A stretch of 32,345 nucleotides of DNA, taken from positions 1-32,345 of the forward strand of contig JAKSQH010000019.1 of NCBI GenBank assembly GCA_024404245.1, in the 5' to 3' direction. The position numbers and the translations under genes are program-made. The notes under the pieces are model-generated. The model ran no database searches and was not told where the DNA came from. It was given only the letters and a program-made list of their open reading frames with translations. This document shows, piece after piece, positions 1-23,163 of this stretch. The stretch is from Clostridia bacterium (GTDB lineage: Bacteria > Bacillota > Clostridia > Christensenellales > Aristaeellaceae). Position 1 is the first letter of the stretch, and every line of letters begins with the position of its first letter.

Positions 1-866
1 CCCTGCTTCCAGTAATCTTTGAACCAGTCCCAGTTGGAGCCTTCGGGCTGGGGAGCAGCGTAGTTGTTCCACCAGTCAATACGGGTCTGCAGAGCTTCCA
101 GGCCGGCATCGCTGCCAACGGTGGGCTGCAGTTTGCCATTCTCGTCATAGTCAAAGAAGGTAGCGCCGTTAGACATCACCAAAGCGATGCAGGCGTCGTC
201 GCCGGAACCGGTAATGCCGTAAACATCGTTCACGCCGTCGTTATCGGTGTCACGGGTAACCTTCTTCATCATTTCTTCCATCATGGCCCAGTCCCAGGTG
301 CCGTCAGCCTGAGCATCATACAGGGTTTCCGGGTTGATGCCGGCTTCGGTCAGGACGCGCTTGTTGAAGAAGATGCAGGAACGGGGTTCGACCTTACCGG
401 TGTGTACGCCCATGATCTTGTCGTTCTTGGTAACGAACTTCAGATCGGTGGGGGTCCACTTCTCGGCGCTCATGTCGATAACCCAGGGCATGGTCAGGTC
501 ATTGGCAATGGCGGAGCCGATGAAGTCGGAAGCCAGCATTACGAGGCACAGCTTGCTGTTGTCCTGGTTCATAACAATGTTAGCGAGTTCGGTGGGGTTT
601 CCAGCCCAGTCAGACAGAGCGGTCTCAACGATCGTCACGTTGCACTGTTCCTGAATCCAGTCACGATACTCATACAGCTTGGCGGTATCCGGATCGGGAT
701 CGGCCATGCGCTCGCCGTTGGACCACCAGTCATAGAAGTAAACAGTCTGTCCGCCGAAGTCAAGTCCTTCGGGGATTTCCGGATAGCCTTCCGGAGCTTC
801 GGCCAGAGCTGCACACGCGACAAACAGCATCAGAGCCGCCAGGATGAGGGAAATGATTTTCTTCAT
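1..866 (-). CDS. extracellular solute-binding protein of a sugar ABC importer (3' end outside window)
   Basis: The gene starts at the ATG at 864-866 and runs off the window; 288 complete codons are present. GGAGG lies just upstream (876-880). The product begins with a signal peptide of about 22 residues (MKKIISLILAALMLFVACAALA, given here in two parts: MKKIISLILAALM and LFVACAALA). A Cys is present, but the residues before it (F-V-A) are not a classic lipobox; cleavage after ALA is the alternative. The mature part reads like a type 1 sugar-binding protein: an early strand and YDWW segment, then stretches such as FFNKRVLTEAGINPETL and WDWAMMEEMMKKVT, typical of family SBP_bac_1/SBP_bac_8. It would capture a carbohydrate outside the cell for the permease pair encoded just upstream. 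It has its own promoter, so it may be made in excess of the permeases. Family is fairly certain, substrate is unknown. Confidence 0.85.
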   Translation of the reverse strand, partial: MKKIISLILAALMLFVACAALAEAPEGYPEIPEGLDFGGQTVYFYDWWSNGERMADPDPDTAKLYEYRDWIQEQCNVTIVETALSDWAGNPTELANIVMNQDNSKLCLVMLASDFIGSAIANDLTMPWVIDMSAEKWTPTDLKFVTKNDKIMGVHTGKVEPRSCIFFNKRVLTEAGINPETLYDAQADGTWDWAMMEEMMKKVTRDTDNDGVNDVYGITGSGDDACIALVMSNGATFFDYDENGKLQPTVGSDAGLEALQTRIDWWNNYAAPQPEGSNWDWFKDYWKQ

Positions 867-964
867 CAGAGAAAACCTCCTTTTTTATTCTATACGGACG
901 CAGACGCGAACCGTACAGTAACAAAATGAACTTTTCCGGGTTACCCAACCGGATGTACGAACAT

Positions 965-993
965 ATTATATCCGTTAATTTGTGAAAAAACAA
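965..993 (-). promoter_or_regulatory. internal promoter for the downstream solute-binding protein gene
   Basis: On the minus strand, TTGTTT (988-993) and TATAAT (965-970) are separated by 17 bp, about 100 bases before the start codon at 866. The 171-base gap after the permease gene holds no clear terminator, so the binding protein could be expressed both from this site and by read-through. Confidence 0.6.
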
Positions 994-1037
994 GTCTGTT
1001 TTTATTCATGAATCAAACAGGAACAAAACCGTCAGCA

Positions 1038-2048
1038 TTATTCCTTCGATCCGGTCATCGTCAAGCTTTCCACAAATGTGCGTTGTGTGAAGCAGTACAG
1101 AACAATCAGCGGAATACAGCAGATCAGCACGGCGATGGAAATCAGTTGCAACTGGCGACCGTTCGGTACAACCACTGACTGCGTCTTATCCTTGGAGAAG
1201 TAGCGGCCCATCCGGCTGGCCATGGTGCTCATCTGTACAGCGTATGTCTGATAACCTGTCAGGAAGTTGCGGGAATAGAACAGGTCTGTCCACTGCCACA
1301 CGAAGCTGAACAGGAAGCAGCTCGCGATTGTCGGCAGCGCGTCAGGCAGCATAATTTTCACGAAAGTATGCATAGTGCCGCAACCATCGACATATGCCGC
1401 TTCTTCCAGACTTTCCGGAACACTCTTGAAATACTGACGCAGCATGAAAATGTACAGTCCGTCCTTCAGGCCCATGCAAGTCAGGCACATCATCACATAC
1501 GGCCATACAGAGGAACGCAAATTGAGCGGCGATCCGGTCAGCAGCGTAAAGATGCCAAAGATATCGAACTTGGAGAATGTCATGTAAAGGGATGTGGAAA
1601 TCGTCTGCGGCGGAATAATGATCAGTGCGATAACGCACGCGAACCAGAATTTCTTCAGCGGAAAATCGAATCTTGCGAATCCGTAAGCAACGAGCGTGGT
1701 TGAAACAATCTGGCATACCGCCATCACAAGAGAAAGCCACAGTGTGTTGAGCATAGAAGTGGGAAAACCGGTCAGATCCGCGACGATCTTATAGTTTTCC
1801 AGTGTCACGTGCCTCGGCAGCAACACAATGGTGGAGTCATAAAGGTCAGGCTCTGTCATAAAGCTCATGGAGAAACGGGTCAGCATAGGCTGAATAATCA
1901 TGAAGCACAGACCGAACATCAACAGTCCGCGGAATACCGAAATGCACACGGAGGCGATTTTCCGTTTCAGCAGATAGCCGCCGCTTCTGCGGTTCCGTTC
2001 CTTGAAGCTTTTGTTGTTGCCGATGTAAACCGTATTATTCTTACTCAT
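1038..2048 (-). CDS. carbohydrate ABC transporter permease, MalG type
   Basis: Inner-membrane subunit of a sugar importer, 336 residues, somewhat longer than the usual 275-300. About six hydrophobic segments are visible (roughly 38-60, 98-122, 133-155, 180-200, 240-255 and 300-325). The cytoplasmic EAA loop that docks the ATPase is at about 216-236 (EEAAYVDGCGTMHTFVKIML). There are added residues after the third segment and in the last extracytoplasmic loop (about 260-300). Its start overlaps the end of the partner permease gene by 8 bases, which suggests translational coupling and a heterodimer with that protein. No ATPase gene is nearby; in Bacillota a shared MsmK/MsmX-type ATPase encoded elsewhere usually serves such importers. 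Confidence 0.9.
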   Translation of the reverse strand: MSKNNTVYIGNNKSFKERNRRSGGYLLKRKIASVCISVFRGLLMFGLCFMIIQPMLTRFSMSFMTEPDLYDSTIVLLPRHVTLENYKIVADLTGFPTSMLNTLWLSLVMAVCQIVSTTLVAYGFARFDFPLKKFWFACVIALIIIPPQTISTSLYMTFSKFDIFGIFTLLTGSPLNLRSSVWPYVMMCLTCMGLKDGLYIFMLRQYFKSVPESLEEAAYVDGCGTMHTFVKIMLPDALPTIASCFLFSFVWQWTDLFYSRNFLTGYQTYAVQMSTMASRMGRYFSKDKTQSVVVPNGRQLQLISIAVLICCIPLIVLYCFTQRTFVESLTMTGSKE

Positions 2049-3036
2049 ACGACTTCACCGCCCTTGTAATGATGAACGCGCCGATGCCGATAAAGACCAG
2101 GGCGACGGCAAAGTACAGCCAACTCATGGCGGATGCCGCGCCAAAGTCCATCTTCTTGGCATTCATTCCGTACATCGTTTCGTTGATACACTCAATGACC
2201 CTGTTATCATTCTTCATGAAGAAGTCAATAATGGTATAGATGCAGTTTACAAGAAGCAGAGGGCTGACCATGGGGAATGTGATCTTCCAGAACGCTTCCC
2301 AGCCGGAACAGCCTTCAACATCCGCGGCTTCATACAGCGAGGGAGATATAGACTGCAGACCGCTCAGAAGCACAATAATCTGAATGCCGCTGGCCATAAC
2401 GATATCATAGATGGAGTCAATCATCTGGAAAATGACATCGAATACATCGCTGGCCACGCCGGATACCGAGAGCAGACTCTGCAGGGAAGCGGAAAGGTTT
2501 ACGCCGGATTCCTCCGTAGCGGCCTTGGACACATCAGACATCAGGTTGAAGAACTCATTGGAGCTTTCAATACCCGGCAGCACACCGGATGAAAGAATCA
2601 CAGGCAGGAAAAAGATCACACGGCAGAATGTTCTTCCCTTGAAATCCTGATTCAGGATAACCGCGATCACGAAGCTCATAACCAGCGTGGCAACTACATT
2701 AATCGCCATACGTCCCGCTTCATCCAGCAGGTACTGGTTAAAGTTCGCGTCAACCTTCAGCGCGTAATTATAGTTGGCAAAGTTATTCCACGTTTTCGTG
2801 TATCCGGCGCCTGCCTGAAGTTTGACTTCACACAGACTCATTGAAAATGATTCGATCAGCGGACGCACCATGAACAGGATAAAACCGATGATGAACGGGA
2901 GAATGAAGAGCGTTCCGATACGGGCACGTTTGGCCGGCATGGTCTGATAGATCCTGTTCCCGGGGATGTACATCTGGAATGCCTCGGTGATTCCGCTGTA
3001 CCAGTGATCCCGGTGGATCCTTCCCTCTTTTTTCAC
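2041..3036 (-). CDS. sugar ABC transporter permease, MalF type, with long loop insertion
   Basis: 331-residue membrane protein with a cytoplasmic N-terminus and a first membrane segment at about 42-62. The EAA loop is at about 236-256 (YEAADVEGCSGWEAFWKITF). Compared with ordinary LacF/UgpA-type permeases, it carries an insertion of about 60 mostly polar residues (about 152-214), after the FFLPVILSSGVLPG segment and before the IQIIVLLSGLQS segment. This places the insertion outside the membrane face, where it might contact the binding protein; that is inference. The gene overlaps the DUF5696 gene before it by 4 bases and the MalG-type gene after it by 8 bases. Confidence 0.9.
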   Translation of the reverse strand: MKKEGRIHRDHWYSGITEAFQMYIPGNRIYQTMPAKRARIGTLFILPFIIGFILFMVRPLIESFSMSLCEVKLQAGAGYTKTWNNFANYNYALKVDANFNQYLLDEAGRMAINVVATLVMSFVIAVILNQDFKGRTFCRVIFFLPVILSSGVLPGIESSNEFFNLMSDVSKAATEESGVNLSASLQSLLSVSGVASDVFDVIFQMIDSIYDIVMASGIQIIVLLSGLQSISPSLYEAADVEGCSGWEAFWKITFPMVSPLLLVNCIYTIIDFFMKNDNRVIECINETMYGMNAKKMDFGAASAMSWLYFAVALVFIGIGAFIITRAVKSYE

Positions 3037-5609
3037 TTTCCGGTCCCCCTTTCAACTTTGTAATCGCGGGCACTTACATTGATTGTTCCGTCAGCGTAAT
3101 CACTGTCACCGTAATTGACATATACGCGCGTTCCGTCCTCATAAACCGTTACCGTAACCTTGGACGTCAGGCGTTCATGCCCTGTAATCTGTTTCCGGTT
3201 CAAGTCACCCATCTCACTCTGATACCGTAGAATCATGGGAATAACTTCTTCCTTCCAGCGGTCGTACGCGGCTGAAGTATAGCAGCTGTATTGGGTGTCC
3301 TGCAGGATCATGGTGTCTTCCTTCATGAAGGTGAAGTTCAGACCCGCGCCGTACTCGGCGCATTCCAGCAACGCTGTCTGATAGTCACCTGCCAGGTTGA
3401 TGGCTTCGCCTGTGTAGTTCCGGAAACCGTGCAGCGCGATCTGATAGAACGGAATCTGTTTGTCAAGAATCGTGTAGGCGTTTCCTGTAAGGCGCATATC
3501 CGTAATCATATCAACATACGGCACCGCGTAGTCGTTGCCTTCGCGGATGGTAATACGCAGACCCGCTTCAACCGCTTTTTTCAGTGTTTCCACGTTCATC
3601 AGCAGTGTCTGCTGGCGCGTTGTAGTCGCCCTGTTGTAGTAGTCAGCGCTCAGCAGATTGCCGATATCACGGAAAGCGATACCGGCCGCTCCTTTATCCT
3701 GCAGTGCCCGGATCAGATTATCCGCGTTGCTCGCGGCATAGTCCGGACGCACAAGATAGTAGGGATCCTGCCATTCGCTCTGCTTATAGGTAACAATATC
3801 GTAGTTGTACAGTTTTACCTGTTCGCGGGTAGTCAGCCGCGCGGCGTGTGAAAAAGGCAGGAAGCCCTCAAATACACCGCTGTCATAGGCAAAACAGTTG
3901 ATTCCGTCAAATGTCAGGTTAACACCCTTAGCTTTTGCCTCAGCGATAAGTTTCTTCATGCCCTTGTCCCCGCCGATTTCACCGACCGTTCTGACGCTGG
4001 TCAGCACCTGCTGGCGGATACCGCCGTTGCTCCAGCCGGTCATGCGGAGATTCATATCCTTCACACCGCTGTCAGTCAGTTCGTTCATGATAGAGGCGGC
4101 CTGATCAAATGAAGTAACGGACACAACGGAATCAACAGGCATCCCGAACTTCACCATCATTTTGTTGATCGCGCCGACCAGTTCCATATTGACGGGCATG
4201 TTTTCGGAAACTTCGGTCTGCTTCGATTCGGGCTTGGCTTTCAGATAATCGCCGTAAGCTTTCGCCATAGTCACATAGTCGCCGCCTTCAAGGAAGCGGT
4301 AACGCTGTACCAGCGTATCATCCGGAATTGCCTTCTCGTACATGTACAGCAGTTCCGCGGTTCTCGCGGATACGTTAAAGCGGTCACAGTGAAGCACGTT
4401 GCTCTTGGCATAAACCGTGTTATAGCTGTTGTATCTTCCGGCAATATCGGCACAGATGCCACCGTAAGCCGACGCGCCTTCCAGAATACAGATGAAGGAA
4501 CCGTCTTCTTCACCGATACCGAATACCGGAAAAGCATCGCAGGTTTCACTTACGACTTCCGTCCGTTCCGTCGCGTAATCCCAGCCGTACAGGTTGGCAT
4601 AATACGCGTTCTGGGTGACCTTGCCGTTATTGAAGTTGATCAGCGCTCCACCGCCTTCAGGAACCAGCATGAAGCCTTCCCTTTCCGTTCCGGCCGCGCC
4701 AAACATCGGCAGTACACTGATGTAGGTCAGCGGCGCGCCATTCATGCACTTGAATGAGGAATACGGCACTTCCACAACCATATCATCGCCTTCAAGCCGG
4801 TAGATCACGCTGGCATTAAAGACATATCCGTTGTTGCTTTTCTGTTCCTGCATCAGCGCGTCGTCAACCGCTTTATCCTCGGCGGTATATCCCGCCTCCT
4901 TGAAGCCGTTCTCAACCATTTCTTTTGTTGAGGTGGTCGTATCAGTCTTCAGCAGATATACGGCAACTTCGGCAGCGCTCGGGCAGCGTGCGAGAATCTC
5001 GTCCTTGTTCTTAGCCTTGTCCAGTTTCGCGGGCTCGGAAAGCGAATAGTTGGAACCGACCTTTTTCCGGGTCTTCTTGGACATCTTTTCAGAAAATTCT
5101 TCGTATCTTTCCTTAGTGATGACTGTCGGAATCATGAACTCGCGTTCAATCTGACCGATAGCATAATCCACCCGGATAGAACCGTCTTCCTGCAGAATAA
5201 CATCGAATGTCTGGTTCTGCATGGAATAGGTATAGTTGTTCAGTTCAACTTCACCGCTGGAATTCGTATAAGTGACGTTGAACGTTGAAGACAACGCGTC
5301 CTTATTGAGTGTCAGGGCAATCGGATCCTTATCCCTGTCTTCCGGATTGGAAAACCATACCTTTCCGTTTTTCTTGTCCGTCACCCGGAATTGCGTTGTG
5401 GTTGGATCCATTTCAAACAGCAGGCGTTCGCTCTCCATCGTGAGCGGTTTGCCGTCACCCGTATAACTGAAAATCTCAGGTTCCTCACCGTAGGTTGTTT
5501 CCTGCTGGGTAAAAATCGGGATGAAGACAAACAGTACAAGAGCGGCAATAGCTGCCAGAATGACGAACAAAATAATCAATTTCGGAAGGATCGACTTTTT
5601 CGACTTCAT
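3033..5609 (-). CDS. DUF5696-type membrane-anchored protein, possible glycoside-hydrolase-like barrel
   Basis: 858 residues. A basic start and one hydrophobic segment (about 10-32) form an uncleaved signal anchor, so the bulk is extracytoplasmic. Residues about 45-450 are strand-rich with a Lys/Glu-rich helical insert at about 165-255. Residues about 470-760 alternate strands and helices like a (beta/alpha)8 barrel, with acidic residues at strand ends: TFDGINCF (D near 569), AFRDIGNLL (D near 648) and ITIREGNDY (E near 690). A short strand-rich tail (about 810-858) follows. I match the whole to the DUF5696 family from memory of its architecture and its position beside sugar permeases. An enzymatic role on a glycan is inferred from the barrel-like pattern only. 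ATG overlap with the next permease gene (4 bases) ties it to transport. Confidence 0.7.
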   Translation of the reverse strand: MKSKKSILPKLIILFVILAAIAALVLFVFIPIFTQQETTYGEEPEIFSYTGDGKPLTMESERLLFEMDPTTTQFRVTDKKNGKVWFSNPEDRDKDPIALTLNKDALSSTFNVTYTNSSGEVELNNYTYSMQNQTFDVILQEDGSIRVDYAIGQIEREFMIPTVITKERYEEFSEKMSKKTRKKVGSNYSLSEPAKLDKAKNKDEILARCPSAAEVAVYLLKTDTTTSTKEMVENGFKEAGYTAEDKAVDDALMQEQKSNNGYVFNASVIYRLEGDDMVVEVPYSSFKCMNGAPLTYISVLPMFGAAGTEREGFMLVPEGGGALINFNNGKVTQNAYYANLYGWDYATERTEVVSETCDAFPVFGIGEEDGSFICILEGASAYGGICADIAGRYNSYNTVYAKSNVLHCDRFNVSARTAELLYMYEKAIPDDTLVQRYRFLEGGDYVTMAKAYGDYLKAKPESKQTEVSENMPVNMELVGAINKMMVKFGMPVDSVVSVTSFDQAASIMNELTDSGVKDMNLRMTGWSNGGIRQQVLTSVRTVGEIGGDKGMKKLIAEAKAKGVNLTFDGINCFAYDSGVFEGFLPFSHAARLTTREQVKLYNYDIVTYKQSEWQDPYYLVRPDYAASNADNLIRALQDKGAAGIAFRDIGNLLSADYYNRATTTRQQTLLMNVETLKKAVEAGLRITIREGNDYAVPYVDMITDMRLTGNAYTILDKQIPFYQIALHGFRNYTGEAINLAGDYQTALLECAEYGAGLNFTFMKEDTMILQDTQYSCYTSAAYDRWKEEVIPMILRYQSEMGDLNRKQITGHERLTSKVTVTVYEDGTRVYVNYGDSDYADGTINVSARDYKVERGTGK

Positions 5610-5625
5610 TGTTTCTTCACCCTCC

Positions 5626-6324
5626 TTAATACAGCCGGTATACGATCTCGCGGTACATACTGATGAAGTATCCGAGAGCGTCGCTCAGCAGGCTGAAGAA
5701 CACCAGTACCAGGAACAGAATAATTGCGGCTCCGACAACGGTCACAATCAGGAAAACAAATGTTTTTCCCGGGCTGTAGTCGTGTACTTCCATCAGGCCG
5801 ACAAAAGCGAGGAACGCGGCCCAGATAACGCTGATGCTCATCAGAACACTGTAGAAACTTGCTTCATCAAACGCGAGCATATTACTCACAAGAATCAGCG
5901 GTAGTTGAATCAGCCAGATCGGTATTAACGCGTAACACATCGCTATATAAATATCCTTGAAGCGACCCTTACCGTCAAACAGCGTTGTCATGGCCCAGTT
6001 GGCAAGGCACAGCACGAGGAACGGAATCAGCAGTGAAAACGCTTCCTCAAAAATGTTGATGTGCTGTACGGGAGCCGAAATAAACTGGAAATTGGTACAC
6101 AGCAGTTTCAGTACCCTGTTCAGCAGGAACAAGAACAGGAACGTGTTGGCCACGGCGAGGTTGCCCTTGTGTTCGTGTGCCAGATCCCAGAAGCCGTCAA
6201 AAGGATGTGAGATAACATGGAAAGCATACTTCAGCCCTGCTTTGTAGCTGTCCCACCAGGCCTTACGGCCGGCCGCGCGCTCAGCTGAATCAGTTGCCGT
6301 CTTTATGGACTTTGCTCTGCTCAT
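5626..6324 (-). CDS. YIP1-family integral membrane protein
   Basis: 232 residues with a polar N-terminus containing a motif of the kind seen at the start of bacterial Yip1 domains (YAFHVISHPFDGFWDL, about 34-49). Five hydrophobic segments follow: about 55-72, 92-112, 124-148, 154-176 and 188-220. The start at 6322-6324 is preceded by GGAGG nine bases upstream. It overlaps the end of the NHL gene by 35 bases in a different frame, an unusually long but well-supported overlap. The family is found in many bacteria without a settled function. Here it sits between two surface-facing proteins of a sugar cassette, which suggests an accessory role in assembly or anchoring; that is inference. Confidence 0.75.
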   Translation of the reverse strand: MSRAKSIKTATDSAERAAGRKAWWDSYKAGLKYAFHVISHPFDGFWDLAHEHKGNLAVANTFLFLFLLNRVLKLLCTNFQFISAPVQHINIFEEAFSLLIPFLVLCLANWAMTTLFDGKGRFKDIYIAMCYALIPIWLIQLPLILVSNMLAFDEASFYSVLMSISVIWAAFLAFVGLMEVHDYSPGKTFVFLIVTVVGAAIILFLVLVFFSLLSDALGYFISMYREIVYRLY

Positions 6325-7852
6325 GCATGATCACCTCCCACTTCATTCTGTTGATGCGTCCGCTGATCACCGGTATCAGAAGCAACACTGCCAGGATCAG
6401 TACGATCCACCATACATTCTTCTCAACCCATTCTTTGCGATACAGTTTGAACGCCCGCCCGTAATTATCACGGTCATGTGCACGTTCAAAGTAGTCCATG
6501 GCTTCCTTGAACTTATCCTGACGGAGCAGCGCCCGGCCGATTCCACGGAACGCCATCGGATAATTGGCGTTCAGCTTCATAACTTCATTCCATAATGTGG
6601 CGCTCGAGTCATAATCACCGGCCAGATAGGTCTCAATTGCCGAATAAATCTTGGTGCCGTACTCTGTCGGCTTGAACACTGTGATGTTGCCTTTCAGCTG
6701 ATCCAGTACAAACAGGTCGTATCCCATGTGTTCGATACTGACCGCGCCATTGAACGCGCCGTCGATATTGCCTTTCGTACCGAAAGCCCATAGCATGATT
6801 CCCTGGCTGTCATAGCCGAAGATACGTCCGCGTATACGGTCTACCAGCACATAGATATCATTGTCAAAAACGGTAATATCGGTAAACCGGCTGGGTCCGT
6901 ACACCTGATTGTTTGTCTGCTCCTCCCAGTACAGATCACCGATTGGAGGATAACGGTCGTTTTTGATCAGGATATCGGTTCCTACACCGTTCAACCTGCG
7001 CACCGGCTTCGCGTTGTCCCATTTCAGATCGTATTCACTGAACACAGTGTTGGTGGCATAGATAAACCCGTCTTTGTCAATGCAGATATTCTCGTACTCG
7101 GTCGGAACGAACGCTTCGGATTTGGAGCGCTGTTCCTGCGTCTGGAAATATCGTTTCCAGATATATTCCGCGGTGCTCACAACAACGTTGTTAGCTCCGA
7201 TGAACCCGGTAAACACACCGTCAGCCTCGAATTTAACCAGACCCTTGTTGACATTCTGCACCAGCGCGTAGAGACGACCGGCATTATCAATCACGATCTT
7301 TTTCGGCAGAAAATCCAGATTCTGGTCAAAGGTAGCGTCACTGGGCTTTGTAAATTCAAGGATCCAGTTCAGATCCTTATCCATTTTGACAACGCGGAAA
7401 TTGCCGTAGTCAGCTACATAGATATTATCCTGTTCATCTACATAAACATCATACGGCGACTTGATATCACTGAGCTCACCGCCAATGTTGACTTTGTCAA
7501 TTATGCGTTGCAGGCTGTATTCGCCGTTCTCTTCATAGCGGATCTGCAGAATGCGGTTGTTGCCTGTATCACAGACATACAGATCATTTCCGCGAGCAAA
7601 AAGCGCCTGCGGCTTGTTCATCCGCTTGCCGTCCAACAGATCGAGTCCGAGATGAACGCTGTCGATAACTTCCGATACGCGGTAGGCATCCGGGCTTGCC
7701 TGTACATCTCCCCAGTAATCGTATCCGTAGGTATAGGATGTGCTGAAACCGTCCTTGTTCAGGTCGTAGCTGTCATCTGCCAGCGCTGTCGTCTCACAGA
7801 CAAGCAACAGCACGCACATCAGGCACGTCAGCACACGTTTCATCCGTGTCAC
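6290..7852 (-). CDS. secreted NHL-repeat protein with TPR-like segment and C-terminal membrane anchor
   Basis: 520 residues. GTG at 7850-7852 is taken as start because GGAGG lies nine bases upstream; the in-frame ATG three codons later is 18 bases from it. A signal peptide (about 1-26, ending TALA) leads to beta-propeller repeats (about 60-390) with recurring patterns such as LYVCDTGNNRILQI, IYVADYGNFRVVKM and LFVLDQLKGNITVF, typical of NHL blades. Residues about 400-455 look like one or two TPR units (GDYDSSATLWNEVMKLNANY; FKEAMDYFERA). A hydrophobic stretch near 475-495 then anchors it, leaving a short basic cytoplasmic tail. Propellers of this kind usually bind protein or sugar; function here is unknown. 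The gene follows a permease gene by 46 bases and overlaps the YIP1 gene. Confidence 0.8.
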   Translation of the reverse strand: MTRMKRVLTCLMCVLLLVCETTALADDSYDLNKDGFSTSYTYGYDYWGDVQASPDAYRVSEVIDSVHLGLDLLDGKRMNKPQALFARGNDLYVCDTGNNRILQIRYEENGEYSLQRIIDKVNIGGELSDIKSPYDVYVDEQDNIYVADYGNFRVVKMDKDLNWILEFTKPSDATFDQNLDFLPKKIVIDNAGRLYALVQNVNKGLVKFEADGVFTGFIGANNVVVSTAEYIWKRYFQTQEQRSKSEAFVPTEYENICIDKDGFIYATNTVFSEYDLKWDNAKPVRRLNGVGTDILIKNDRYPPIGDLYWEEQTNNQVYGPSRFTDITVFDNDIYVLVDRIRGRIFGYDSQGIMLWAFGTKGNIDGAFNGAVSIEHMGYDLFVLDQLKGNITVFKPTEYGTKIYSAIETYLAGDYDSSATLWNEVMKLNANYPMAFRGIGRALLRQDKFKEAMDYFERAHDRDNYGRAFKLYRKEWVEKNVWWIVLILAVLLLIPVISGRINRMKWEVIMHEQSKVHKDGN

Positions 7853-7898
7853 TTGGTCATTCCTCCTGTTTCTTCGTTCTTCAGGCAGTCTCCGCCGA

Positions 7899-9134
7899 TC
7901 AATCCTTGATACCGGAGGAAGCCATGGTTTCGAGAATCTGACTCTGACTGAGAATAAAGATAATAACGGGAACCGAAACGATTACAACAGTCGCGGCCGC
8001 GGTCTGGCCTGTACGGGCCACGCCGCCCGCCTGAATCTGCTGCAGCGCGTAGACCAGTGTCTTCTTGGCTTCCGAATAGATGACCGTGCTGGCGCTTGTG
8101 TTCCACAGGCTCTGCACACTGAAGATGATCACGGTCAGCCACGCGGGCTTCACGTTGGGCATCACAATACTCCAGAAGATTCTGAACTCGCCCGCGCCGT
8201 CAATATGCGCGGCTTCGATCAGCGCCGTCGGAATACTTTCCATAAACTGCTTCATCATGAACAGACCGATGGGAGCGGCAAACGCGGGCAGGATCAGCGC
8301 CCAGTAGGTATCAATCATACCCAGACGGCTCATGATCAGGTAGTTCGGAATACCGGTCACGTAACCGGAGAACATCAGTCCTGTCGTAACAATGGCGAAG
8401 AATGTTTTTCCACCGGGGAACTGATACTTGGCGAGCACGAACGCCGCCATACTGGCAATCACCAGGTGTCCGAAGGTGCCGATCAGCGTGATCAGAACGG
8501 TGTTGATCATGTACCGGCTGAAAGGCACCCAGCTCTGGCCCATGGTGACAAACAGATCCGAGAAGTTATCAAATGTCGGATGCTGCGCGAATACCGTCGG
8601 CGGGAACTTGAACAGTTCGTCCAGCGGCTTCAGTGAGGAGCCAATCAGGAAGATCAGCGGGAAGGCCATCATCACGGCAACCAGTACAAGCAGGAAATAA
8701 ATGCCGATATCACCCGCAACGGAGCGGTTCGGATGGCGGCGCTTGATCAGATGACGTTTCACCTGAATCCGCTCGCCGCGCAACTCCGCCAGGCGGTGCA
8801 GTTCGTCCGCGCGGGTTTTCTTCGCAACGGGCTTGTCAACCCAGTGCTGATCCATGAAGCCGTATAGTTTCAAGCCCTGATTCAGCTCAAATGTGTAGCT
8901 AGCGCCGTCATTCGCCGCGTCCTTCAGTACCACGGTCACATCACTGGATGTACCGCCGCGGCGGATATTGTCCAGCCGGTTGATTTTCGCGTAGGTAAAT
9001 TCCACAAAAGGTTCCTGCTGCTTCTTCACATAGAAGGCAGCACCTTTTTCACCGGCAACCAGCTCGCCGTGGTACCTTTTCCCGTTAACCAGACGCAATA
9101 CGCCGGCGGATCTGACAGTATCATTCTGACTCAT
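7899..9134 (-). CDS. MalG-type sugar permease fused to an N-terminal soluble domain
   Basis: 411 residues, about 120 more than a normal MalG-type permease. Residues 1-105 are soluble and strand-rich (GVLRLVNGKRYHGELV; FTYAKINRLDNIRRG; YTFELNQGLKLYGFMDQ). That is a layout like PH/GRAM-type small domains: a run of strands ending in a helix. A charged linker (about 105-138) leads to the transmembrane part (about 142-400), which has the EAA loop at about 307-327 (EAAHIDGAGEFRIFWSIVMP). With the usual topology, the extra domain would be cytoplasmic, near the ATPase. The start codon is one base after the stop of the partner permease gene. The fold of the extension is my inference; the permease part is clear. 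Confidence 0.88.
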   Translation of the reverse strand: MSQNDTVRSAGVLRLVNGKRYHGELVAGEKGAAFYVKKQQEPFVEFTYAKINRLDNIRRGGTSSDVTVVLKDAANDGASYTFELNQGLKLYGFMDQHWVDKPVAKKTRADELHRLAELRGERIQVKRHLIKRRHPNRSVAGDIGIYFLLVLVAVMMAFPLIFLIGSSLKPLDELFKFPPTVFAQHPTFDNFSDLFVTMGQSWVPFSRYMINTVLITLIGTFGHLVIASMAAFVLAKYQFPGGKTFFAIVTTGLMFSGYVTGIPNYLIMSRLGMIDTYWALILPAFAAPIGLFMMKQFMESIPTALIEAAHIDGAGEFRIFWSIVMPNVKPAWLTVIIFSVQSLWNTSASTVIYSEAKKTLVYALQQIQAGGVARTGQTAAATVVIVSVPVIIFILSQSQILETMASSGIKD

Positions 9135-9135
9135 A

Positions 9136-10089
9136 TCAGGTACCTACCCTTCCCAGCAGTGAGCTGACTGCTTTTTTACACAGAATCATAACCAGGAACA
9201 GCAGCGTCGCGATGGCGGACGCGTAACCCATTTCAAAGCGGCTGAAACCGTAGTCGAACAGGTGCGTAACCACCGTGCGCGCAGCATAGTCCGTCGAAGG
9301 ATAACCGCACAGGGCTCTCGGAACGTCGCATACGTTGAACGCGGATGTGATGCTCATAACGGCGCCGAACAGCAGCATGGGTTTCATGCTGGGCAGGGTG
9401 ATATGATACAGTTCCTGCCAGCGGTTCCGTACACCGTCCACATAGCCCGCTTCATACATGCTCCTGTCAATGCTCTGGAAACCGGCGACAAAACTCAGGA
9501 AGCCCGTGCCCATGCTCATCCACAGGATTACAATAATCAGAATCGTCATCATGTAACGCGGGTCGGTCAGCCACAGTTTCGGCGCTTCGATAATGCCGAA
9601 TTCCGTCAGCAGAGAGTTCAGCCAGCCGTAGGCGTCACCGCGGAAAATGATGGAGAATACCGTGAACGCGTTTCCTGCGATGGACGGCGCGTAGAACACG
9701 ACCACCGCGATGGTTCTGAGCCATTTCGGCAGTTCGTTGATAAACCACGCGAACATGAAGGAAAGGATATATCCGACGGGGCCGGTAATCACGGCGATCA
9801 CGAACGTGTTCTTCACAGAGGTCAGGAACACCTCGTCCTGCAGGACCAGATTGATATAGTTGTCAAACCCCGTAAAGCGCGCGGGTTCCAGAATGTTGTA
9901 GTATGTGAAGCTATAGAAAATGGAGATGGCAATCGGCAGAATAAAGAATGTGATGAAGAGAATGGCATACGGCGCAAGGAACAGATAGCAGACCTTGTTT
10001 CTCTTTGCCTGAGCGAGTCCGTAGCGGAACTGCTCCTTCTTCATTTCAAAATACTTGGGGAGTAACGGCTTATTCATCGTCTTTTGCAT
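9136..10089 (-). CDS. sugar ABC transporter permease, MalF/UgpA type
   Basis: 317 residues when started at the ATG at 10087-10089, which has GGAGG about eight bases upstream. A longer reading frame opens at 10161 but would run back into the preceding gene. Six hydrophobic segments are visible. The cytoplasmic loop is at about 213-235 (EAGYVDGVRNRWQELYHITLP), where the second Ala of the usual EAA triplet is Gly. It pairs with the MalG-type gene that follows at one base. Together they form the first of the two permease pairs in this cassette; the substrate is probably an oligosaccharide or a glycan fragment, inferred from family only. Confidence 0.9.
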   Translation of the reverse strand: MQKTMNKPLLPKYFEMKKEQFRYGLAQAKRNKVCYLFLAPYAILFITFFILPIAISIFYSFTYYNILEPARFTGFDNYINLVLQDEVFLTSVKNTFVIAVITGPVGYILSFMFAWFINELPKWLRTIAVVVFYAPSIAGNAFTVFSIIFRGDAYGWLNSLLTEFGIIEAPKLWLTDPRYMMTILIIVILWMSMGTGFLSFVAGFQSIDRSMYEAGYVDGVRNRWQELYHITLPSMKPMLLFGAVMSITSAFNVCDVPRALCGYPSTDYAARTVVTHLFDYGFSRFEMGYASAIATLLFLVMILCKKAVSSLLGRVGT

Positions 10090-10111
10090 GGTCTTCCCTC
10101 CTTCCCTTTCA

Positions 10112-12997
10112 TCAGTCAATCGGCAGATTGAATTCACGGCGTTTGATCTTGATTTCTTCATTAATCGTACGCGTGTAATTCAGCAGCGATTCTCTCGGGT
10201 CGATCTTCTCATTGATCACCTTACGAATGGCGTTGGTAATATGACGCGTTGTGGAGTAACCGCCGGCGATTTCGGGGAAGCCGCGCGTCATGGACATCTG
10301 TTCCTCCAGCACGCCCAGCTGCTCACTTGACCACGCAAGCTGCTTCAGCGCATTACGGTTCGCTGTCTGGTATCTGGCGCTCGCGCCCAGAATACTTTCC
10401 ATCTCGCGTCCGAAGCGGACCTGGCTTTCTTCGCTGACCCACCACTTCATGAATTCCCACGCGTTCTTCTTCACGGTTTCGTCGTCCGTAGCGACCATCA
10501 GCGTGCACAGTCCGTCCGTATGCACCGTGCGGTCCAGCGTTCCGTCATCCTTCACCGTTCCGGGGAACAGGGTGAAATCCCACAGTCCTCTGATTTCAGG
10601 CGCGGAAACCATCAGCGTATTGTAGGTCGCGTAGGAAGCGAGACCGATGGGCATCTCGCCGCTGCGGAAACGGCTTACGAAGTCGTATACAATCGGCAGG
10701 CCGTAGTCGTTATACAGGCTGGTATACAGTTTAAACGCGGTAACACCGTTTTCACTGTCAATCAGCGTCTTCCGTCCGTCGGCGGCGTACACATCCCCGC
10801 CGTTCTGGTAAATCAGAGAGTTGAAGATCGAGATATCGGCCAGTCCGATATCCGGGAAAGGCACACCCACCGTCAGGCTGTTGCCCTGGATGGTCGGCAG
10901 CATATTGATGATATCTTCCCAGGTCTGCGGCACTTCCAGTCCCAGTTCATCAAGCACGTCCTTGCGGTAGAAGAGCAGGTTGAAGTTCTGGGTTTCCGGC
11001 AGGCCGTACACGCCTGCGTGCTGTCCGTCGTTGTAGGTCAGCGGATCCAGAATGGACTGATAGAAGGGTTCCACAGCCGTCTCGAAATCTTCAAACTGGG
11101 TCAGGTCCACCGCCGCGTTACGCATAGCGTAGTTCACCGCGAACCATCCGCTTACGCTCATCACGACGTCAGGACCGTTGCCGGCCACCACGGCTGTCAG
11201 AATCGCGTTCGCATCAACCAGTTTGACATTGACCTTGATGCCGCTGTTCGGCGTAAAAGTATCGTCGATCATGGTTTTGAGTACGGTGGACTGGTCACGG
11301 CCGGTCACAATCCATACTTCAATCGCGTCATGCATATCGTCATATTTGTTGCCCAGCGCGTTGTAATCGACAAAGAAGGAAGCGAAGCAGGAACGGATCT
11401 CGTGCCATGCCCTGTTGAAGAAATTCTCATGGACGGACGGAATCTTCGCTCCCGTGCCGGATACAACAATCATATCCACATCCAGCTTGCTTTCGGACAT
11501 GTTCTGCATGGCCGTACCGAGAGAGGTGATGTTGTCCTTGAAGTTTGTAAAGGACTCGGTCATCCTGTATCTGTCCTTCACAAAGCTTTCAAGCTGCACA
11601 GCCAGTGTCTGCGCCACGGCGACACGGTCACTCTTCTGCCCTGTGATCGCGACGGTGTCATCCACCAGTTTGTAAAGCCGCTTGCTTTCCAGCTCCATCG
11701 CGCTGATAACTTCCGGATAAACGCCTTCGATGTTGTAATCGCGAAAACGGTCGGGCGTCGCGCCGGTCAGCACCAGCACCTTGCGGTAAATCTGATTCAG
11801 GCGGAAAATGCTGTCCTCAACTTCCTCCAGCACAGCACCCATTTCGCCCATCGTCACTTCCATCCGGATGGTATGGGTACCCGCGGTCAGCCAGAAGTCG
11901 AACGGTTTTCCGTTCTCATCGCTCAGCGTCCGCATTTCCCAGTTTGTATCATATTTGAAGGAGACAGACGCGAGATCCTCAAACGGAACTTCACCGTCGA
12001 TATATACGGTACGGCAGCTCATCGCGCCGCGCTGATACATCTGGCGGGCCTTGATGCTGATGTTGTACCAGCCGTCCTCCGGTATTTCCATATCCCACTG
12101 GATCCACTGCCCCGCGATATTCCACGGGTCACCGCCGATATAGTTCATCACGGTGTGATACACATCATTCGGCTCGGTGGCGGGAGACGAACGGTCGTAC
12201 CGGGGATACAGCGAAGGCGCGGAACGAACGGTGGAGTCCTCACCCTGAATCGTGATGATCGCACTGTTCGCTTTCGTTTCGTCCGCGGCCGGCTGCGCTT
12301 CCCTGTACGCGTCGTATGTCCGGTATTGCTGAACAGGCGTCAGTGTAAGGCTGTTAATGATAACCTTCTCATTTACGGCGTTCAGCGTCAGCGTGTTCTC
12401 GCCTTCGGCAAACCAGAACTGATACGGCTCGCTGATATATCCCATATCATCACGGAAATAAGCCGTCTGTTTCTCATACCTCTCGGTCTGGCTCGGACGG
12501 ATCTCGTTTCCCTGATTATCCTTGTTAATCTCGCCGGCATTTGTCCACAGGCGGCTGAAGCACAGTGTGCTCGCTCCTTCAAACGGCAGCTCACCGTTGA
12601 TGAGTACCTCACGCTCCACATCCACGCCACGGCTTTCAACCGTTGTGTATTCCATCCGGATATTGTACATTCCGGCCTTCGGAACGCTCACCTTCCAGGT
12701 CACTTTTGAGCCGTCTTCGGTATAAATACCGTCACCGCGCGTTTCCGCGGCACCTTCCGACTCAAAGCTCTGCATATCCACCGGGATTTCCATGTCACCG
12801 GAAACGGCATCCGCGTGCTTTTCCAGGTATCCGGAATAGGTGTTTTCACGGCTGATGCCTGTCACATCCGCGGAAAGATCACTGTCCTTGTACTTGGCAC
12901 TGAAATCACTGCTGTTACCGCTGAGCAGGATAACAGCCGCGACGAGCAGCGCGATCAGAAGGACAATGATAAGGGTGTTGCGTCCTTTTCTGGTCAT
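10112..12997 (-). CDS. membrane-anchored solute-binding protein with tandem carbohydrate-binding-like modules
   Basis: 961 residues, more than double the usual 400-550 for this family. An N-terminal hydrophobic segment (about 7-26) after a basic start has no Cys lipobox and should act as an anchor. Two similar strand-rich modules follow, at about 75-225 and 247-385. Both contain the pattern of CBM6/CBM35-like domains: a weave such as WKVSVPKAGMYNIRMEY or WDMEIPEDGWYNISIKARQ, then an INGELPFEG or IDGEVPFED turn and a WFAEGENTLTL or WLTAGTHTIRM segment. Residues about 390-540 are helical. Residues about 555-961 form a SBP_bac_1-type domain (GNGPDVVMSVSGWFA; YGLPETQNFNLLFYRKDVL; AWEFMKWWVS). It is the first gene of the cassette, so both the modules and the binding domain probably see the same extracellular glycan. 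Confidence 0.85.
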   Translation of the reverse strand: MTRKGRNTLIIVLLIALLVAAVILLSGNSSDFSAKYKDSDLSADVTGISRENTYSGYLEKHADAVSGDMEIPVDMQSFESEGAAETRGDGIYTEDGSKVTWKVSVPKAGMYNIRMEYTTVESRGVDVEREVLINGELPFEGASTLCFSRLWTNAGEINKDNQGNEIRPSQTERYEKQTAYFRDDMGYISEPYQFWFAEGENTLTLNAVNEKVIINSLTLTPVQQYRTYDAYREAQPAADETKANSAIITIQGEDSTVRSAPSLYPRYDRSSPATEPNDVYHTVMNYIGGDPWNIAGQWIQWDMEIPEDGWYNISIKARQMYQRGAMSCRTVYIDGEVPFEDLASVSFKYDTNWEMRTLSDENGKPFDFWLTAGTHTIRMEVTMGEMGAVLEEVEDSIFRLNQIYRKVLVLTGATPDRFRDYNIEGVYPEVISAMELESKRLYKLVDDTVAITGQKSDRVAVAQTLAVQLESFVKDRYRMTESFTNFKDNITSLGTAMQNMSESKLDVDMIVVSGTGAKIPSVHENFFNRAWHEIRSCFASFFVDYNALGNKYDDMHDAIEVWIVTGRDQSTVLKTMIDDTFTPNSGIKVNVKLVDANAILTAVVAGNGPDVVMSVSGWFAVNYAMRNAAVDLTQFEDFETAVEPFYQSILDPLTYNDGQHAGVYGLPETQNFNLLFYRKDVLDELGLEVPQTWEDIINMLPTIQGNSLTVGVPFPDIGLADISIFNSLIYQNGGDVYAADGRKTLIDSENGVTAFKLYTSLYNDYGLPIVYDFVSRFRSGEMPIGLASYATYNTLMVSAPEIRGLWDFTLFPGTVKDDGTLDRTVHTDGLCTLMVATDDETVKKNAWEFMKWWVSEESQVRFGREMESILGASARYQTANRNALKQLAWSSEQLGVLEEQMSMTRGFPEIAGGYSTTRHITNAIRKVINEKIDPRESLLNYTRTINEEIKIKRREFNLPID

Positions 12998-13014
12998 GAG
13001 TCCATCTCCTGTCC

Positions 13015-13032
13015 GTTTTACACGCGTAAAAC
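13015..13032. promoter_or_regulatory. 18-bp palindrome resembling a LacI-family operator
   Basis: Seven-base arms (GTTTTAC at 13015-13021 and GTAAAAC at 13026-13032) flank ACGC, giving a palindrome with CG at its centre, as many LacI/CcpA-type operators have. It lies about 85 bases downstream of the predicted start of transcription and 17 bases before the start codon of the 961-residue binding protein, so a bound repressor would act as a roadblock. Assignment to a regulator family is inference. Confidence 0.4.
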
Positions 13033-13114
13033 GATTTTTGGAATCTGTGTAATTGTCACTTCTGTGCAGATGTAATCAGAAAAACTGGTTAATTTGCACA
13101 AATATAGACACTAT

Positions 13115-13143
13115 ATTATAGCAATCGGAAAAACCGGTGTCAA
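13115..13143 (-). promoter_or_regulatory. consensus sigma-A promoter of the carbohydrate-uptake cassette
   Basis: On the minus strand: TTGACA (13138-13143), 17 bp, TATAAT (13115-13120), with TGC directly before the -10 box. Both hexamers match consensus exactly. The untranslated leader to the start codon at 12997 is about 110 bases. A promoter this strong normally needs a repressor, which fits the palindrome at 13015-13032. The rest of the 304-base gap (12998-13301) holds only AT-rich sequence and the pheT terminator. Confidence 0.85.
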
Positions 13144-13234
13144 CGGATAAAGGATATACACTTATATTGATTTCGAAGAAAAACAATATTGTATGCAAAG
13201 CAGCGAACTTTTCGCGTTTTTTATTTTTCAGTAT

Positions 13235-13275
13235 AAAAAAGCGGCGGCGATGTCATCTTCCGGCTGACATCGCCG
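13235..13275 (-). terminator. intrinsic terminator after pheT
   Basis: An 11-bp perfect stem (13245-13255 with 13265-13275, 9-base loop) is followed on the minus strand by six T residues (13240 down to 13235). It lies 27 bases after the pheT stop and separates the synthetase operon from the sugar cassette. Confidence 0.9.
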
Positions 13276-16854: not shown

Positions 16855-17772
16855 TCATTCTCCGAGCGCTTCCCTGAGGACGCGCATATTTTCACGCATA
16901 ACCGTTTCATAGTAATCGTACGGCACATCCGTTTCCGGTCCGGTAACCACAGGATCCAGTGAATAGATCACCGCTCCGGTTTCCGCCGCCAGTGTTCTGG
17001 CGCTCAGGTCCTCATACTGTGGTTCCGCGAACAGCGGAGGAACGCCGAGCTCGCGCACCGTGACGATCAACTGTTTCAGCTGTGTCGGCGTCAGCGTTTC
17101 GCCGGGTTCCCGGTTCACAACGGCAGCCACATTCAGCCCGTATGCTCTCGCGAAATACGGAAACGCCTCGTGGAAAGTAATAATGTCCCTGCTTTGCAGA
17201 TCCTTCAGGCCTTCTCTCAGCTCATTGTCCAGCTGTTCCAGGCGCAGCGTGTACTCCTCCAGATTGGCGCTGATCTGTTCCGCGTATTGCGGAAACGCGT
17301 CCGCCAGTCCTTTGGCCAGATTCGCGGCCATCACGGCGGCGTTGCCGGCGTCGAGCCAGATATGGGCGTTCACTTCCGCCTCGTCCGCGTCCTCATCCGC
17401 CGTTTCCGCGTTGCCGATCACCAGCCCGGTGACGTTTTCTACCAGCGGTATTCCGTCAGCCGCGGTGATGACCGTCAGCTCCGGAAATGCTTCAAACACG
17501 TTTTCCAGATAGCTTTCCATCCCGGCTCCGTTTACCAGAAATACGTCCGCTTTCGCCAGCGCCTTCATATCCCCTGTCTGCAGCTGATAATCATGCAGGC
17601 AGCCCGTGTCCGGCGATGCCAGATTCTCCACGGTAATGCCGTCGATACCCTTTGTCAGATTCAGCGTCAGCAGCCAGATCGGGTAAAACGAGGTGACCGC
17701 TGTTTCCGCCGCGGCAGCCGTGCACACACACAGCACCGCGAATACCATCAGTAATGAAATAACTCTTTTCAC
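16855..17772 (-). CDS. zinc/manganese-type ABC substrate-binding protein (ZnuA/AdcA family)
   Basis: 305 residues, starting at a GTG (17770-17772) behind GGGGGT. A signal peptide (about 1-22) ends in Ala-rich sequence with no convincing lipobox. Likely metal ligands of the cluster A-I fold are present: H60 (GCLHDYQ), H137 (NAHIWLDAGN), H201 (TFHEAFPYFAR) and D273 (SLDPV). Where ZnuA proteins have a His-rich loop, this protein has an acidic one (ETADEDADEAE, 123-133). It should hand Zn2+ or Mn2+ to a membrane importer, but no permease or ATPase gene is adjacent. It follows an unknown gene by 18 bases and is probably co-transcribed with it. Metal identity is not determined. Confidence 0.88.
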   Translation of the reverse strand: MKRVISLLMVFAVLCVCTAAAAETAVTSFYPIWLLTLNLTKGIDGITVENLASPDTGCLHDYQLQTGDMKALAKADVFLVNGAGMESYLENVFEAFPELTVITAADGIPLVENVTGLVIGNAETADEDADEAEVNAHIWLDAGNAAVMAANLAKGLADAFPQYAEQISANLEEYTLRLEQLDNELREGLKDLQSRDIITFHEAFPYFARAYGLNVAAVVNREPGETLTPTQLKQLIVTVRELGVPPLFAEPQYEDLSARTLAAETGAVIYSLDPVVTGPETDVPYDYYETVMRENMRVLREALGE

Positions 17773-18723: not shown

Positions 18724-18742
18724 TTCCGGAGGATAGTTGGTA

Positions 18743-20065
18743 ATGGAAATGGAAGTTCTGTGGGAGCAAGCCTGTGCCCTGATGAAGGAAGAAATGAATC
18801 CGATCTCCTACAATACATGGATTGAAGGCAATCTTGAACCCGTGCAGTTGGATCAGGATGTCATGTCACTTGAAATCGGCATGGAAAATATGCGCCCGAT
18901 GATTGTTAACAGATACGTTCCGATCATAACAAAATCGCTGACGTCCGTAACCGGTCACCCCGTCACGGTACGCGTGCTGACGCACGCCGAAGCGGTCGCC
19001 CTGAAAGACGGAGACGATACGGAAGCCGAAGATGATGACCTCAAACTGAATCCGAAGTATACATTTGAAAGCTTTGTTGTCGGCGACGCGAATAAATTCG
19101 CGCACGCGGCGGCCCTTGCCGTGGCGGAATCCCCTGCCGATGCCTATAATCCCCTGTTCATCTACGGCGGTGTCGGTCTGGGCAAAACGCATCTGATGCA
19201 GGCCGTCGGCAACTATGTGCGTGAGCAGTATCCTGATAAAAAAGTGCTTTACATCACCAGTGCCGATTTCACAAATGAACTGATCAACGCGATTCAACAG
19301 CGGAAAACATATGAGTTCCGTGACCGTTTCCGTAAAGTTGATGTGCTGATGGTGGACGATATTCAGTTCATCGCCGGCCGTGAGAGCACACAGCAGGAGT
19401 TTTTCAACACTTTCAACGAACTGCACAACGCGGGCAAGCAGATCATTCTGACCAGTGATAAGCCGCCGAAGGATATCGCCCGTCTGGAGGAACGTCTCTG
19501 CAGCCGTTTTGAGTGGGGTCTTGTCGCGGATATCCAGCGTCCCGATATTGATACCCGTGTGGCGATTCTGCGTGAAAAGGCGCGGCAGGAGCACATCCGT
19601 CTGGACGACGATGTACTGCAGCTGATCGCGGGCAAGATCGACAGCAATATCCGTGAACTGGAAGGCAGCCTTAAGCGTCTGGTTGCCTACTCCGGTCTGG
19701 TGGGAGAGCCGATCAGCGTTGCCCTTTGCGAGGTCGCGTTGAAGGAAACCTTTGATCAGAACCGCCACCGCCAGATTACGGCCGAAGTGATTATGCAGGC
19801 CGTAAGCGACTATTACGGCATTACCATTCCCGATCTCACCGGTCCCACCCGCAGGCGTGAAATTACCATACCGCGCCAGATCGCAATGTTCCTTACCCGT
19901 GAAATGACCGGCATGAGTTTCCCGCAGATCGGTACGGTATTCGGCGGACGTGACCATACAACAGTCATGCACAGCTACAAAACCGTTGAAGCCGGCATCA
20001 AAACAAGTTCATCCACCGCGCTGGTGGTGGACGATGTCCGGCGTCTGGTCAGGGACGCTCAGTAA
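18743..20065 (+). CDS. dnaA: chromosomal replication initiator protein DnaA
   Basis: 440 residues from the ATG at 18743, ten bases after GGAGG; the TTG at 18737 is in frame but only four bases from it. DnaA-ATP binds DnaA boxes and opens the origin. Domain I (about 1-75; LWEQACALMKEEMNPISYNT) is followed by a short acidic domain II. The AAA+ core has Walker A GGVGLGKTHL (near 142-151) and Walker B DVLMVDDIQF (near 200-209). The C-terminal helix-turn-helix carries a DnaA signature close to HTTVMHSYKTVE. Length and motifs are normal. Unlike most Bacillota, dnaN does not follow; the next gene is convergent dnaJ, with a shared terminator. Confidence 0.97.
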   Translation: MEMEVLWEQACALMKEEMNPISYNTWIEGNLEPVQLDQDVMSLEIGMENMRPMIVNRYVPIITKSLTSVTGHPVTVRVLTHAEAVALKDGDDTEAEDDDLKLNPKYTFESFVVGDANKFAHAAALAVAESPADAYNPLFIYGGVGLGKTHLMQAVGNYVREQYPDKKVLYITSADFTNELINAIQQRKTYEFRDRFRKVDVLMVDDIQFIAGRESTQQEFFNTFNELHNAGKQIILTSDKPPKDIARLEERLCSRFEWGLVADIQRPDIDTRVAILREKARQEHIRLDDDVLQLIAGKIDSNIRELEGSLKRLVAYSGLVGEPISVALCEVALKETFDQNRHRQITAEVIMQAVSDYYGITIPDLTGPTRRREITIPRQIAMFLTREMTGMSFPQIGTVFGGRDHTTVMHSYKTVEAGIKTSSSTALVVDDVRRLVRDAQ

Positions 20066-21250: not shown

Positions 21251-21289
21251 CGGTTTACCTCATCACCTTGCTCCGTATACCGAAGGCAA

Positions 21290-21314
21290 GCCCGCCGCTC
21301 GTCACGCGGCGGGC
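21290..21314 (-). other. strong hairpin between dnaK and dnaJ
   Basis: A 9-bp perfect GC stem (21290-21298 with 21306-21314) and a seven-base loop sit in the 86-base gap. No T-run follows on the minus strand, so it is more likely a processing or mRNA-protecting structure that lowers dnaJ relative to dnaK than a full terminator. Confidence 0.55.
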
Positions 21315-21336
21315 TGTACCCCGGTTCCGGTCAGAA

Positions 21337-23163
<1,827 letters not shown>

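Follow-up and report, generated by a model that had tools for sequence, protein, structure and literature searches.

A set of nine genes at one end of contig JAKSQH010000019.1 of a Clostridia bacterium (assembly GCA_024404245.1) is a conserved unit in Bacillota. The window, as we call the whole stretch of 32,345 nucleotides analysed here, is the entire contig (C11) and belongs to a genome of 1.98 Mb that is 65% complete. The unit encodes two solute-binding proteins (SBPs), two pairs of MalF/MalG-like permeases and, between the pairs, a trio consisting of an NHL-propeller protein, a YIP1 membrane protein and a DUF5696 protein. With a probability of about 0.55, and on the basis of sequence, we read it as a conserved apparatus in the membrane that captures oligosaccharides of plant cell walls and imports them. 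Protein families and neighbouring genes make the import role probable; the role of the trio is one that we infer. An earlier note, made from the letters of the window alone, had placed nine genes on one strand here. All nine are where it put them; how widespread the unit is, and how cohesive, goes far beyond what its reader could tell.

Nine genes kept together across Bacillota

The nine open reading frames (ORFs) occupy positions 3-12997 of the minus strand and run, in the order of reading, SBPa, permA, permB, NHL/TPR, YIP1, DUF5696, permC, permD and SBPb.

10112-12997, minus: SBPa, 961 residues, with a hydrophobic N-terminus (read from the sequence), a CBM35-like region and a C-terminal solute-binding domain (Pfam, PDB profile)
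9136-10161, minus: permA, MalF-like permease (PF00528; EAA-loop variant EAGYVDG)
7899-9134, minus: permB, MalG-like permease extended by about 140 residues at its N-terminus (PF00528 at 227-399 of 411; EAA loop)
6290-7852, minus: NHL propeller and TPR protein with a hydrophobic C-terminal segment (NHL, PF01436, 42 bits against a gathering score of 20; TPR sub-threshold)
5626-6324, minus: YIP1 membrane protein, 232 residues (PF04893, 53.1 bits against a gathering score of 28.6; alignment)
3033-5609, minus: DUF5696 protein, 858 residues, a hydrophobic N-terminus followed by a GH129/DagB-related region (PF18952, 607.8 bits against a gathering score of 25.6)
2041-3036, minus: permC, MalF-like permease (PF00528; EAA loop)
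1038-2048, minus: permD, MalG-like permease (PF00528; EAA loop)
3-866, minus: SBPb, second SBP, its 3' end cut at the contig end (PDB match 6rjy)

The assignment to the CUT1 class of sugar importers follows from these matches. All four permeases match PF00528 over the cut-off, three with a recognisable EAA loop and permA with the EAG variant. SBPa matches SBP_bac_1 (PF01547) and PF13416, with CBM_35 below the cut-off; as a profile against the PDB, its C-terminal part resembles sugar SBPs and its N-terminal part a region of 5x7g. SBPb obtains nothing from Pfam at 0.001 and is recognised by its PDB match only. There the arabino-oligosaccharide-binding protein 6rjy comes first (E 1e-4 for the single sequence, 6e-13 for a profile of eight), so SBPb is taken as the second SBP. 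Both of the binding proteins announced by the earlier note are therefore present, with the correction that SBPb is incomplete because base 1 of the window is base 1 of its contig.

From SBPa to permD, eight genes are tightly packed. SBPa and permA overlap by 50 bases counted from the first ATG of permA, or lie about 22 bases apart from an internal ATG at codon 25. The following junctions (positive for a gap) are permA/permB +1, permB/NHL +46, NHL/YIP1 -35, YIP1/DUF5696 +16, DUF5696/permC -4, permC/permD -8 and permD/SBPb +171, which agrees with the overlaps of 4, 8 and 35 bases already noticed. The idea of one coupled unit holds for the eight packed genes and less well for SBPb. Across the 24 loci of window type (those whose DUF5696 scores more than 1150 bits, the window among them) the largest gap between SBPa and permD is no more than 51 bases, and the permD-SBPb gap is 145-203 bases in 18 of 21 such loci (median 157 over the 21).

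Conservation was assessed in three sets of stretches. The relatives set holds 46 (L033-L078), two of which are other copies in the window's own genome; one fragment (G028:C70) was left out, and three weak matches (L079-L081) were kept apart as a GH129-like outgroup. The phylum set holds 30 (L193-L222, 19 genera by group codes), spread over genera and drawn from 55 strong matches in genomes other than the window's. The named set (L084-L163) is the best 80 of 489 and partly repeats the relatives. DUF5696 exceeds the cut-off in 34 of 61 related genomes. All eight packed genes could be located in 40/46 relatives, 20/30 phylum and 65/80 named stretches. In every incomplete stretch of the relatives (6/6) and named (15/15) sets the contig breaks off within 5 kb of DUF5696; truncation also accounts for three of the ten incomplete phylum stretches (L202, L205 and L221). 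In four others SBPa lies downstream (L206, L210, L212 and L220), and L198, L203 and L222 contain neither SBPa nor permA/B. NHL and YIP1, by comparison, lie upstream of DUF5696 in 30/30 phylum stretches and two permeases downstream in 29/30, the remaining one being cut. The most firmly linked core is thus NHL-YIP1-DUF5696-permC-permD.

Members of the trio also co-occur at the level of whole genomes. In a sample of 398 genomes of the phylum, the window's among them, strong DUF5696 matches (E <1e-140) occur in 37 and strong matches to a YIP1 profile (E <1e-38) likewise in 37, the two lists being identical (Fisher p 5e-53, with related genomes treated as independent). Since the profile was built from 20 YIP1 proteins encoded beside DUF5696, this shows a subfamily tracking DUF5696, not all YIP1 proteins. 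Weaker matches were left out for DUF5696 (G067, G187, G362 and G385, E 2e-6 to 9e-6, of which two exceed the Pfam cut-off) and for YIP1 (G221 and G271, E 9e-9 and 2e-11). Ten chosen positive genomes contain 15 DUF5696, 15 YIP1 and 15 strong NHL matches, one of each side by side, and a single additional NHL match, which is weak. Copy numbers per genome are lower bounds, at most three DUF5696 and seven YIP1 candidates having been scored. Five genomes (G100, G122, G142, G195 and G225) each hold at least seven YIP1-type copies, an expansion across two families; these are mostly in ORFs of about 700 residues or more, and so NHL-fused as judged by size.

Divergence points the same way. For this comparison 40 of 51 loci were used: the further DUF5696 has diverged between two loci, the more each of seven partner genes tends to have done so too (rho 0.75-0.89; 0/500 permutations each), SBPa being the closest follower at 0.89; plain vertical descent would produce the same pattern, there being no species-tree control.

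These data bear on an alternative that we consider unlikely, though a serious one: that two ordinary CUT1 importers stand side by side, each taking different products of one polysaccharide, with NHL, YIP1 and DUF5696 serving the second only. The composition of the core fits it well, as does the displacement of SBPa, permA and permB, which are downstream or outside the stretch in 7/30 phylum stretches. Against this, both permease pairs and SBPa flank the trio on one strand in 125/156 stretches (the sets overlap), the short gaps of the window-type loci run unbroken from SBPa to permD, and it is SBPa that tracks DUF5696 most closely.

Within the trio, the best evidence here for two proteins acting together is gene fusion, which suggests a joint function for NHL and YIP1. 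They form a single ORF of about 670-840 residues in 20 fetched loci (L205 being cut at 410), and the gene annotated 'YIP1 family protein' on the Paenibacillus cellulosilyticus plasmid is likewise an NHL-YIP1 fusion. Where the two ORFs are separate they usually overlap, most commonly by 26 bases (58 cases, in overlapping sets). The fused state appears in 21 of 60 rows of a DUF5696 tree and requires four changes, all forced by the starred branches; the tree comes from a quick search and has long branches, two of which meet, and fusion and fission are indistinguishable on it. The YIP1 profile found no PDB match at E 0.1. The three accessory proteins had been described as surface-facing, a picture that has to be modified: YIP1 is an integral membrane protein, and the NHL protein also has TPR matches and a hydrophobic C-terminal segment.

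The earlier note had chosen conservation of the neighbours as one observation on which its proposal should stand or fall. The unit withstands it: its gene order is repeated within the genus, beyond the family and on named plasmids, and is joined by co-occurrence, congruent divergence and repeated NHL-YIP1 fusion or fission.

DUF5696 and its glycosidase relatives

When a profile of 43 DUF5696 members was compared with the PDB, the matches were 5opq (E 6.8e-14), 8rzg and 8rzk (5e-13) and 5wzn (1.9e-11), with the next at 0.13. The first and last are DagB, a 3,6-anhydro-D-galactosidase, and NagBb, the alpha-N-acetylgalactosaminidase of glycoside hydrolase family 129 (GH129). Over whole sequences the E values run from 7e-14 to 3e-11. 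The likeness is strongest in the barrel: scored by segment, the 5wzn barrel reaches 4e-10, the 5opq barrel 5e-5 and the 5opq N-terminus 0.001, and collinear C-terminal segments are individually insignificant. By profile, DUF5696 is a distant relative of the GH129/DagB glycosidases. It is not, judged by the residues considered below, filed as GH129. The GH129 family model PF11308 matched nothing anywhere, control genomes included, so it does not demonstrate an absence of GH129.

The catalytic residues of GH129 are seldom found together in DUF5696. The alignment with 5wzn stops 12 residues short of Asp435, and an ungapped extension reaches D648 of the window protein within one residue; the GH129-like proteins L079-L081 also place their Asp in this column. 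Among 139 members, the column holds Asp in 109, another residue in 29 and a gap in one. The second residue is expected at column 689, which is Glu in all three GH129-like proteins, Arg in the window protein (R689) and Glu in 14/139 members; we take the acid/base place to be NagBb residue 478, in the SSE motif, within clan GH-R. Asp 648 and Glu 689, the GH129 catalytic pair, coincide in 5/139, and the window protein has the first without the second. If Glu at 690 is also allowed, the pair rises to 41/139, the window protein included.

A second difference concerns the metal. The N-acetylgalactosamine (GalNAc) site of NagBb makes use of calcium and a tryptophan platform, according to PMC8106489. 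Residue differences between 5wzn and its variant 5wzq mark columns 522, 524 and 568 as the presumed metal ligands of this site. They are H, D, H in L080 and L081 and Q, V, H in L079, whereas DUF5696 mostly has R/K (104/139), T/S (90) and D (101). With R, T and D, the window protein does not keep the presumed ligands.

L080 (9850-11721) and L081 (9871-11721) are themselves worth recording. These GH129-like proteins, weak matches to the DUF5696 profile, come from one genome of the same order (G052) and retain the Asp and the Glu together with the H, D, H columns. They share the GW..G, R665 and Gly/Pro motifs with DUF5696 but lack its E752.

A rival reading is that DUF5696 works outside the cytoplasm as a glycosidase whose active site has been remodelled, trimming oligosaccharides before import, so that the unit would capture, process and import. 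This we regard as rather unlikely, but it has points in its favour. Besides the relationship to GH129 and DagB, Asp is mostly kept at 648, and three residues are nearly invariant (E752 and R665 in 136/139, W526 in 137/139). The window's D648 and Glu 690, the latter one position off the expected acid/base place, may make an active enzyme. DagB, moreover, is active though its homologues keep only Asp435 of NagBb's two catalytic residues, as stated in PMC5698469. The scarcity of the strict pair, the 30 members with a different residue or a gap at 648 and the replacement of H, D, H argue against activity of the GH129 kind. On balance the preferred reading treats DUF5696 as a putative membrane-tethered glycan-binding part. 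Of the capture, processing and import that the earlier note had proposed, capture and import fit the CBM35-like SBP, the permease pairs with their EAA loops and the hemicellulases that flank related units; processing is so far unsupported, because DUF5696, for all its kinship to glycosidases, is usually without the GH129 catalytic pair.

Surroundings of the unit

The genes around related units point to hemicellulose. Downstream of 23 window-type units lie 39 ORFs, of which 31 were scanned (two of the 31, from L033, on the opposite strand); GH10 was matched by 10, CBM4_9 by seven and GH5 by two. A broader scan covered 98 of 108 ORFs flanking a selection of 51 loci; among the 25 families listed, of 102 matched, it gave GH26 (6), GH10 (6), CBM35 (5), GH43 (3), CBM65 (3) and an arabinofuranosidase C-terminal domain (3), as well as LacI (6) and AraC-type (3) domains. 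For example, the copy on contig C7 of the same genome is preceded by a GH26+CBM35 gene and has a CBM65 gene inserted after its permD, ahead of SBPb, and on Butyrivibrio fibrisolvens plasmid pNP243 the nine genes and one extra SBP come after a GH43 gene. From the GH10, GH26, GH43, CBM35 and CBM65 neighbours we infer a hemicellulose substrate, and the neighbours in relatives suggest that the window version probably serves xylan-type substrates. The window's genome has four GH10 matches elsewhere.

The LacI and AraC-type domains in the flanks could also be taken to favour a glycan sensor or transceptor, formed by the trio and pair C/D, that controls the locus and imports nothing. Neither NHL/TPR propellers nor YIP1 proteins are known to us to act in transport, which counts in the same direction. 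Yet none of the trio proteins has a kinase, cyclase or DNA-binding domain according to Pfam, and permC and permD retain EAA loops for an ATPase; we think a sensor highly improbable.

As had been noticed earlier, an ATPase gene is missing: no CUT1 ATPase appeared when 26 ORFs of the window were scanned with Pfam. This is not unusual: MsmX-type ATPases power several sugar importers, according to PMC7658222 and PMC5730181. Five OB_MalK matches lie on other contigs of the same genome, and the ATPase is probably a shared one of the MsmX/UgpC type, encoded elsewhere. On the Paenibacillus cellulosilyticus plasmid (L234) a UgpC ATPase gene immediately precedes SBPa; compared with the window and stretches L033-L163 and L193-L222, this UgpC matched only two ORFs of 229-230 residues, at about 29%.

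Three features lie upstream of SBPa.

13234-13275, minus: intrinsic terminator behind the upstream pheT, with an 11-bp perfect stem and a T run (found by eye)
13115-13143, minus: promoter-like TTGACA-N17-TATAAT with TG before the -10 (12/12 consensus positions)
13014-13033, minus: 20-base palindrome CGTTTTACGCGTGTAAAACG, a possible operator, not conserved (sequence scan)

The terminator was not returned by the terminator scan, its loop of 9 exceeding the scan maximum of 8. Promoter-like sites as a class are not enriched (11 in the region, 12.3 in shuffles). A perfect TTGACA-N16-18-TATAAT precedes SBPa in 22/23 window-type loci, the window included, and a promoter-like site falls inside the permD-SBPb gap in 8/21, the window's gap being without one. 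The palindrome is unproven as a LacI-type operator: the genome has no second exact copy, sites with at most two mismatches number seven, against 10 when the pattern is reversed as a control, and of the regions upstream of SBPa that were compared L046 alone has a looser match. A search of the window with Rfam gave no match.

Further along the window, dnaA (18737-20065, plus strand) stands beside pheST and a ZnuA-like gene; the single DnaA box before it (TTATCCACA at 18636) is at chance level (mean 0.71 in shuffles), so there is no clear origin. An ordinary hrcA-grpE-dnaK-dnaJ heat-shock cluster occupies 20114-24916 (minus). A ZnuA-type metal-binding protein (16855-17772, minus) has no permease or ATPase partner in the neighbouring ORFs scanned, and a phosphodiester glycosidase (NAGPA) gene at 27190-28308 (minus) adjoins an Lgt-like gene.

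A proposed mechanism and its relation to known systems

A capture-and-import system of this composition might work as follows. Secreted hemicellulases (GH10, GH26 and others encoded near the unit in relatives) would free oligosaccharides, which SBPa, tethered by its N-terminus and bearing CBM35-like domains, and the tethered DUF5696 would retain at the outer face of the membrane. The GH129-related barrel of DUF5696 would serve as a glycan-binding or hand-off part, not as a GH129-type hydrolase. The NHL/TPR and YIP1 proteins, observed as fusions elsewhere, may function as one part, an outside propeller with a membrane scaffold, and would connect DUF5696 with permease pair C/D, whose genes are linked to its own and with which it would be in contact. 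Import would then proceed through the two MalF/MalG-type pairs, A/B presumably with SBPa and C/D with SBPb as the gene order suggests, powered by the shared MsmX/UgpC-type ATPase proposed above.

Several observations pull away from this reading. The largely kept D648 and nearly invariant E752 do not sit easily with a pseudo-enzyme, nor do the window's Glu 690 and the precedent of DagB. The displacement of SBPa, permA and permB in some phylum stretches means that pair A/B may be a separate importer, and partner-gene congruence is also what vertical descent would give. GH10 is unseen beside the window copy itself because the contig ends there; the missing end of SBPb was sought in 12 kb of C21 and 8 kb of C49, two GH10-bearing contigs, and no continuation was found. 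Finally, the P. cellulosilyticus unit sits among LLM-class flavin oxidoreductases and aldo/keto reductases, not carbohydrate-active enzymes, a hint that some copies may not handle hemicellulose.

A more ambitious version is that the parts assemble into one large particle, an undescribed, phylum-wide Gram-positive glycan-uptake complex comprising a tethered pseudo-glycosidase, an NHL-YIP1 transmembrane scaffold, a CBM-SBP fusion and two MalFG pairs, as a functional counterpart of SusCD in Bacteroidota. We offer this tentatively and think it doubtful. If a capture-and-import role is correct, a widespread plant-fibre uptake machine of rumen, gut and soil Bacillota would so far have gone undescribed, three uncharacterised families would gain a common role, and DUF5696 would offer a case in which to test how a glycosidase fold became part of a transport system. 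The unit copies that adjoin GH10, GH26, GH43 or CBM65 genes provide a handle on substrates.

Among known systems, the unit is a CUT1 importer variant whose accessory set we did not find described; searches of open-licence literature, preprints excluded, turned up no account of DUF5696 or of the trio combined with doubled permeases. Like CUT1 (MalFGK-type) importers such as AraNPQ-MsmX of Bacillus subtilis, it has an SBP, MalF/MalG-like permeases with EAA loops and no ATPase in the operon; what sets it apart from them is the doubling of the permease pair, the CBM35-like domains on an SBP and the presence of the NHL-YIP1-DUF5696 trio. With the plant-glycan loci of Bacillota, in which GH10 or GH26 accompanies ABC importers, it shares hemicellulases and carbohydrate-binding modules adjoining an SBP and permease set, and those loci, to our knowledge, have neither the trio nor doubled permeases. 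GH129 enzymes resemble DUF5696 in the barrel, from which the latter departs in its rare catalytic pair, its replaced presumed metal ligands and its genetic link to importers.

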